This document shows, one piece after another, positions 46,126-46,858 of a DNA stretch of 64,000 bases. Position numbers and translations under genes: made by a program. The notes beneath the pieces were generated by a model. It did not search any database. It saw nothing but the letters and a program-made list of their open reading frames with translations, and was not told the DNA's origin. How positions within the stretch are numbered: the first letter of the stretch is position 1; each line of letters starts with the position of its first letter. Source of the stretch: a virus; the IMG/VR virus record IMGVR_UViG_3300024336_000005, positions 62,001-126,000 of that record. The stretch is one strand, 5' to 3'.

Positions 46126-46165
46126 ACGGCAGTGGTGTAATGGTAGCACGAGGGATTCCAAACCT
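46126..46165 (+). tRNA. 5' fragment of a split tRNA-Trp(CCA)
   Basis: ACGGCAG acceptor strand, D arm and an anticodon arm with TTCCAAA. No T arm follows; the matching CTGCCGT strand and T arm lie 650 nt downstream at 46824-46855, beyond an intact tRNA-Trp and an HNH gene. Confidence 0.7.
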
Positions 46166-46172
46166 GTTGCAT

Positions 46173-46246
46173 ACGCCCTTAGCCAAATGGTAAGGCAGCG
46201 GATTCCAAACCCGTGATTTGTAGGTTCGATCCCTACAGGGCGTGCA
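46173..46246 (+). tRNA. tRNA-Trp(CCA), intact copy inside the split tRNA
   Basis: Acceptor ACGCCCT/AGGGCGT, anticodon loop TTCCAAA (31-39 mismatch), T arm GTAGG/CCTAC. Its 3' end (GCA) touches the stop of the reverse-strand HNH gene. Confidence 0.88.
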
Positions 46247-46795
46247 TTATTTAAAGGGGCCATCTTGATTTAGATAGTGATCAACTTGATGACAGGTAGG
46301 ACAAAGAATTTCTAAGTTCTCAATAGAACTATCAAGCTTATCTCTATTTTTATGATGAACCTGTAATACATTTGGATACTCACTCCATCCACATTGTGCA
46401 CAAACAAGTTTAAGTTGCTCAAAAGCAATGGCCCTGTATCCACCTTTTATATATCTACCATTTTTGTAGTTGCTTCCTTTGGAGCCTGATCTAAAAAAGG
46501 TGTTAGCACAGCTTCTGCTACAAACAGTCTTTTCTTTTGGATGTCCTTTAAGAGTCTCAAATTCCTTTAGGCATTGTGGGCATTCTTTTAATACTGTCTG
46601 ATACTTCCTTCTAGGATTTTTCCAATGAGAAATATCTAAAGCCTCTTTTGAAATTCTTGAACGCAGAGCCTGATAAGGCGCATTGTCTATTCCAAGAATT
46701 TCAAATAATTCCTTTCCGCAGGAAGCTGTTTCTACTGCTGCAGCGAAAGATTTAGTCGAATATAACCAGATTCTTGATTTCTTTTTGTGGTTCAT
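46247..46795 (-). CDS. HNH homing-type endonuclease (182 aa)
   Basis: Reverse strand. CxxC (KECPQCLKEFETLKGHPKE), a second CSRSCAN knuckle, then VLQVHHKNRD...LEILCPTCHQ, the HNH core. Very similar to the protein at 50104. It sits with tRNA-Trp inside a split tRNA-Trp gene, typical of a mobile homing gene that targets a tRNA locus. Confidence 0.85.
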   Translation of the reverse strand: MNHKKKSRIWLYSTKSFAAAVETASCGKELFEILGIDNAPYQALRSRISKEALDISHWKNPRRKYQTVLKECPQCLKEFETLKGHPKEKTVCSRSCANTFFRSGSKGSNYKNGRYIKGGYRAIAFEQLKLVCAQCGWSEYPNVLQVHHKNRDKLDSSIENLEILCPTCHQVDHYLNQDGPFK

Positions 46796-46823
46796 GCATA
46801 CCTCCTAAGGACACAATAACAAA

Positions 46824-46858
46824 GATTCGGTCAGGGTTCAAGTCCTTGCTGCCGTGCA
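46824..46858 (+). tRNA. 3' fragment of the split tRNA-Trp
   Basis: T arm CAGGG-TTCAAGT-CCTTG and acceptor strand CTGCCGT, fully complementary to ACGGCAG at 46126, then GCA. Confidence 0.7.

Follow-up and report, generated by a model that had tools for sequence, protein, structure and literature searches.

A transfer RNA gene for tryptophan, tRNA-Trp(CCA), of a tailed phage is split into two parts, between which lie a gene for an HNH endonuclease (HNH1) and an intact tRNA-Trp of the same anticodon. The locus belongs to a stretch of 64,000 nucleotides, hereafter the window, comprising bases 62001-126000 of the 204,008-base virus record IMGVR_UViG_3300024336_000005. The source virus is a tailed phage with genes for terminase, portal and major head protein, and 32 tRNA genes were found by ARAGORN. 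The favoured explanation, to which a probability of about 0.7 is assigned, is that an HNH homing endonuclease gene together with a complete tRNA gene was inserted into the tRNA-Trp gene, and the divergent tRNA-Trp took over. Insertion into a tRNA gene and replacement of the latter are well supported. The locus is composed as follows (coordinates refer to the window):

46126..46168, plus strand: 5' part of the broken tRNA-Trp(CCA), with the acceptor strand ACGGCAG, the D-arm and the anticodon arm to about position 43 (sequence, half-tRNA scan, neighbours of the 5' half)
46173..46245, plus strand: intact tRNA-Trp(CCA), the putative replacement (ARAGORN; Rfam tRNA, 59.8 bits)
46247..46795, minus strand: HNH1, gene for an HNH endonuclease of 182 amino acids (Pfam HNH, PHROG HNH families, conserved residues)
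46822..46856, plus strand: 3' part of the broken tRNA-Trp, with the variable loop, the T-arm CAGGGTTCAAGTCCTTG, the acceptor strand CTGCCGT and G73 (sequence, half-tRNA scan, alignment)

The outer segments, 46126-46168 and 46822-46856, are two parts of one tRNA-Trp(CCA) gene. An earlier note on this DNA had pointed to complementary acceptor strands about 700 bp apart, and these strands (ACGGCAG, 46126-46132; CTGCCGT, 46849-46855) indeed form seven of seven pairs, each within a proper tRNA half. The 5' part reads ACGGCAG-TG-GTGTAATGGTAGCAC-G-AGGGA-TTCCAAA-CCTGT, i.e., acceptor, T8, D-arm and anticodon arm with CCA; the 3' part reads (GA)TTCGGT-CAGGG-TTCAAGT-CCTTG-CTGCCGT-G, i.e., variable loop, T-arm, acceptor and G73. 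The break is located in the 3' strand of the anticodon stem or in the variable loop, the whole anticodon loop staying in the 5' part. Six of the seven tRNAs nearest to the 5' half are tRNA-Trp, with the anticodon left out of the comparison. When joined, the halves match uninterrupted tRNA-Trp of Vibrio, Acinetobacter and Synechococcus phages with 75-79% identity over 78-91% of the length, the junction being spanned. At the locus itself, ARAGORN calls only the enclosed tRNA-Trp (46173-46245); its application to every possible junction of the halves was uninformative, since many junctions pass.

Seven complementary bases alone are weak evidence, and the halves might be unrelated sequences matching by accident or a product of erroneous assembly. 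The whole 204-kb record was scanned for orphan tRNA halves, recognized by acceptor, T8 and D-arm on the 5' side and by T-arm and acceptor on the 3' side, a pair being defined by seven of seven acceptor pairs at a distance below 3 kb. From 171 5' halves and 71 3' halves, the scan yielded three pairs: the Trp pair, a second one at 47741/48635 and the halves of a tRNA-His whose anticodon loop holds a 47-nucleotide insert; the same scan of the reverse strand gave no pair. Looser criteria added two more, a cryptic Leu-like tRNA and a pair in reversed order (54423/54525). Compared all against all, the orphan halves matched in 10 of 12,141 combinations (0.08%). This low chance rate, the correct D- and T-arms of both Trp parts, the match to tRNA-Trp through the junction and the equal anatomy in independent contigs (see below) make accident or misassembly hardly credible.

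The intact tRNA-Trp and the reverse-strand HNH gene which the earlier note had placed between the halves were confirmed as well, the former by its Rfam score and the latter by the Pfam HNH profile (PF01844, 23.6 bits vs. a cut-off of 21.4). The open reading frame (ORF) of HNH1 is intact, is antisense to both tRNAs, possesses its own ribosome site (AGGAGG) and ends with a stop codon 2 nucleotides off the end of tRNA-Trp. Across five relatives, V146-H147-H148, N160, H169, H173 and the cysteine (CxxC) pairs are invariant, so HNH1 displays the conserved HH, N, H and CxxC pairs that define the HNH endonuclease superfamily. It is free-standing, being situated outside any intron or intein and flanked on both sides by tRNA halves. 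The enclosed tRNA-Trp, the sole intact tRNA-Trp(CCA) called by ARAGORN in the genome record, shares about 69% identity with the broken gene in its joined form.

The broken tRNA might still be functional, either as an intron-containing gene or with its halves joined in cis or in trans, as in the archaeal split tRNAs. Such function would accord with the perfect acceptor pairing retained, with the RNA ligase gene of the phage (34785-36146) and with the intron-like position, in sense, of some relatives of a second endonuclease, HNH2, described below (L092, L042, L100). However, HNH1 is antisense, and together with tRNA-Trp it fills the insert, leaving only about 25-45 non-coding nucleotides; the anticodon stem of the broken tRNA contains G-G and A-C mismatches, and an intact tRNA with the same anticodon is present. 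Retained function is thus very improbable. That the insert contains a group I intron or another known RNA was ruled out mainly by the lack of room; no Rfam intron family was found in it at E <= 1, a weak negative, since the intron-like L092 was missed too.

The second pair from the scan (TCGGAAG...CTTCCGA-ACCA), located 1 kb downstream of the Trp case, encloses HNH2 and an intact tRNA-Gln(CTG):

47741..47774, plus strand: 5' part of the second broken tRNA, starting with TCGGAAG, with the break near position 34-38 (half-tRNA scan; D-arm comparison)
47778..48491, minus strand: HNH2, gene for an HNH endonuclease of 237 amino acids, placed in the T5 HegA (F-TflIV) family (PHROG 10822, tblastn)
48501..48583, plus strand: intact tRNA-Gln(CTG), a putative replacement (ARAGORN, Rfam)
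48629..48662, plus strand: 3' part of the second broken tRNA, with the T-arm GCAGGTTCAAGTCCTGC, the acceptor strand CTTCCGA and ACCA (half-tRNA scan)

The stop codon of HNH2 abuts the second broken tRNA, and its start codon lies 9 nucleotides from tRNA-Gln(CTG), the sole one in the record. Judging by its full-length similarity to phrog_10822 (E = 9.7e-36 over residues 14-237) and by the tblastn matches to hegA of T5 and of Enterococcus phage Bop, HNH2 is assigned to the T5 HegA (F-TflIV) family. HNH1, which is 27% identical to HNH2 over part of the length only and matches phrog_10822 (E = 5.6e-12) less well than phrog_1271, probably belongs to a different HNH group. The second broken tRNA is probably a tRNA-Gln: this identity is favoured by the U1-A72 pair (57 of 73 phage tRNA-Gln begin with U) and by a D-arm nearest to that of phage tRNA-Gln, although the classifier of 5' halves is correct in only 80 of 150 cases and Thr(CGT) is an alternative reading of the loop.

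Unrelated viruses show the same arrangement with different isoacceptors. A search for the HNH1 family with a profile of the five relatives retrieved 80 viral loci with 66 distinct ORFs. In this family, tRNA-Pro(TGG) accounts for 37 of the 110 tRNAs within 200 nucleotides of the HNH gene vs. 15 of the 380 farther off in the same loci (Fisher P = 1e-15), and in 16 of 26 abutting cases it starts between -46 and +6 nucleotides from the HNH stop codon (in five of them, at exactly -14). The full set of elements is present in L188 (tRNA-Pro 5' part at 2388, HNH, intact tRNA-Pro(TGG) at 3014-3089, 3' part at 3092), which has a copy in L190, and in L198 (5' part at 2184, HNH, intact tRNA-Pro(TGG) at 2872-2946, 3' part at 2962). 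The joined parts from L188 are about 80% identical to uninterrupted phage tRNA-Pro over 97-100% of the length. Partial versions were found with Pro (L202), Leu (L057) and Ser (L093 and L069, where a tRNA-Ser 5' part is followed by HNH and then by intact tRNA-Ser(TGA)). In L057, the stop codon of an antisense HNH gene is fused to the tRNA-Leu 5' part, and the intact tRNA-Leu(CAA) is antisense within the HNH open frame. In all three types of case (Trp, Gln-like, Pro), the break falls near the same tRNA positions, about 34-43.

The window itself harbours a further relative of HNH1 and its neighbour:

50104..50628, minus strand: HNH3, a relative of HNH1 (Pfam, sequence comparison)
50641..50719, plus strand: tRNA-Pro(TGG) adjoining the HNH3 start codon (ARAGORN)

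HNH3 is 52% identical to HNH1 over 134 amino acids, and the tRNA-Pro(TGG) beside it is the usual partner of the HNH1 family in other viruses; no third split tRNA was seen around HNH3. Relatives of HNH2 were found at 80 viral-contig loci, mostly within tRNA arrays, and only three times in genome contigs, two of these being near ordinary tRNAs. Some of them are located in sense inside tRNA genes in an intron-like manner, e.g., in tRNA-Gln of L092, in tRNA-Asp of L042 and in L100; at least in L092, the insert in tRNA-Gln(CTG) resembles a group I intron. In L198 and L144, the HNH genes are preceded by inverted repeats; these and the CATAAATA or TATAAATA sequences of L198, L186, L185 and L176 recall the late promoter and hairpin of T4 segB (PMC2988022).

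Local tandem duplication as the source of the second tRNA was ruled out: the similarity of intact to broken tRNAs is 0.54-0.69, while the median for random pairs of the same isoacceptor is 0.64, i.e., the two copies are no closer to each other than random isoacceptor pairs. The earlier note had proposed that a tRNA was cut by a homing module, which also brought the substitute. This remains the best reading, supported by the recurrence of the anatomy in L188, L198, the partial versions and the second case of the window, with cleavage and homing as its presumed steps. The element would consist of a free-standing HNH gene and a complete tRNA gene and would have entered tRNA-Trp at the 3' side of the anticodon arm. 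Most likely, the nuclease would act on co-infecting phages whose tRNA genes are uninterrupted, cutting the DNA of the anticodon arm, and the nuclease gene would then be copied in by recombination repair along with the tRNA for the same isoacceptor. The resident tRNA gene would be left as two dead parts, its function being replaced by the newcomer. Insertion of the element would cost the phage little despite the lack of an intron or intein, since a functional isoacceptor comes with it.

The two parts and their identity, the intact isoacceptor tRNA in the insert, the intact nuclease gene and the recurrence are seen directly in the sequences; within the explanation we infer DNA cleavage, its exact target, active homing or mobility and the escape of the replacement from cleavage by virtue of its divergent sequence. 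Several points weigh against this explanation. The history may have comprised two steps, the second tRNA arriving before or after the HNH insertion. The HNH1 family normally accompanies tRNA-Pro, and the association with Trp was found only in this phage; the uncertain identity of the second broken tRNA counts here as well. The earlier note had recommended a search for a related phage with the uninterrupted gene. Uninterrupted homologues do exist in other phages, but a search of viral contigs with HNH1, the downstream ORF and exact or degenerate patterns of the uninterrupted tRNAs retrieved no relative of this phage with an empty site. The only near-identical contig, G001 (locus L104; 143 kb, from another metagenome, 100% identical in the tested stretches and found by a terminase search), stops short of the tRNA region. 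The HNH gene and the intact tRNA are convergent in the Trp case, divergent in the second case and in tandem in the tRNA-Pro cases; since their order and orientation vary, the unit is not rigid. Finally, L144 and L187 contain a tRNA half beside HNH without an intact tRNA of the same isotype.

The variable geometry and the halves lacking an intact partner would also fit independent events, in which two tRNA-Trp genes were already present, an ordinary HNH homing gene could break one of them without harm and the intact tRNA is not cargo but happens to lie nearby; several genes per isoacceptor are common in phage tRNA arrays. Yet in the window, L188 and L198 the intact tRNA for the same isoacceptor is situated between both parts and therefore arrived with or after the insertion, and tRNA-Pro keeps a near-fixed distance from the HNH stop codon at many unrelated loci. 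Independent events are therefore considered unlikely, and the joint insertion of HNH and tRNA is preferred.

A more general proposal is that such elements form a natural cleave-and-rescue class in phages, in which each HNH recognizes the anticodon-arm DNA of one isoacceptor, carries a divergent gene that it cannot cut and replaces the resident gene without splicing. This generalization is tentative, and the odds are somewhat against it. Read on the opposite strand, the tRNA-Trp loop TTCCAAA is nearly identical to the tRNA-Pro(TGG) loop TTTGGGA, and this relation might explain how a Pro-associated HNH came to be antisense in tRNA-Trp; the idea is after the fact, and the break in the window is on the opposite side of the loop motif relative to its strand.

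Phage tRNA clusters are already known to contain free-standing homing endonucleases (T4 SegB, T5 HegA), and the splitting of genes by free-standing HNH nucleases is known as well (MobE). T4 SegB, a homing endonuclease of a tRNA cluster, is thought to cut within a tRNA-containing sequence, the tRNA genes being inherited or amplified with it (PMC13096335, PMC2988022). Like HNH1, it is encoded by a free-standing gene among phage tRNA genes; unlike HNH1, it is a GIY-YIG enzyme encoded between tRNA-Arg and tRNA-Ile, whereas here an HNH gene is found inside a tRNA gene, with an intact tRNA of the same isotype in the insert. SegB reportedly recognizes a T-stem-loop motif, a result attributed to Brok-Volchanskaya and dated 2008. 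T5 hegA is homologous to HNH2 and shares its location in a tRNA cluster, but it lies between intact genes, whereas HNH2, accompanied by tRNA-Gln, separates the halves of one tRNA. In nrdA of Aeromonas phage Aeh1, the free-standing HNH nuclease MobE splits a gene without an intron (PMC2988022). The present case is similar in this respect; however, the two nrdA polypeptides reassemble into an active enzyme, while in the present case the function passes to another gene, which is intact. Group I introns carrying HNH in tRNA genes share the target region (the anticodon loop) and in some cases the HNH family (L092); they differ from the present case, which has no ribozyme-sized non-coding sequence, an antisense HNH and no splicing, function being restored by a second gene.

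In synthetic cleave-and-rescue gene drives, a gene is disrupted by a nuclease, and a functional copy that resists cleavage travels on the same element. The phage-borne element is natural and has a tRNA target, and the resistance of its copy is putative; if the explanation is true, it would be a natural counterpart of the engineered drives. Free-standing homing genes usually reside between genes, thus avoiding harm, and introns and inteins splice out; a substitute for the broken gene carried along would be a third route to harmlessness. It would also help to explain the abundance of HNH genes, duplicated isoacceptors and tRNA fragments in phage tRNA arrays. A literature search, with subscription papers outside its scope, revealed no account of an HNH gene that sits within a tRNA gene and is accompanied by a replacement tRNA.

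Other peculiarities of the tRNA region were recorded. Near the tRNA genes are those for the RNA ligase (34785-36146, Pfam), a Ro60/TROVE protein (40773-42416, Pfam) and a possible 2H phosphoesterase (37250-37807, motif recognized by eye, without a Pfam match), which could together form a tRNA repair set. The tRNA-His(GTG) with the 47-nucleotide anticodon-loop insert occupies 59165-59297 (ARAGORN -i; half-tRNA scan), and similar short inserts occur in phage tRNAs of L035, L052, L076, L078 and L079. In the reversed pair, the 3' half (..CCTAG GCCCGCA ACCA; 54423-54449) is upstream of the 5' half (TGCGGGT..; 54525-54560); with seven of seven acceptor pairs, one of them G-U, it could be a permuted tRNA or a chance match. 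The order is also permuted at 47318-47496, where a tRNA-Leu-like 3' half is followed by GAAA and then by the 5' half (CGATCC-GAAA-GGATCG) within a TTGAAC...GTTCAA stem of ordinary folding energy (z -0.8).

Spacers of the tRNA cluster at 44015, 44458, 47321 and 49134 start with T/CGAACTGAAG and end with TTGTTCA/G; one copy displays a compensatory change from T-A to C-G, and three begin directly after the CCA end of a tRNA. Tentatively, the tRNA-like genes with an apparent 8-nucleotide anticodon loop at 50781-50868 (TGTA) and 47650-47740 (GGCC) could be odd or decayed tRNAs. Among the other loci, DNA polymerase III alpha appears split in L009 (509-3359), one ORF containing the polymerase residues and an endonuclease domain (phrog_4645) and the next the HHH/OB part.
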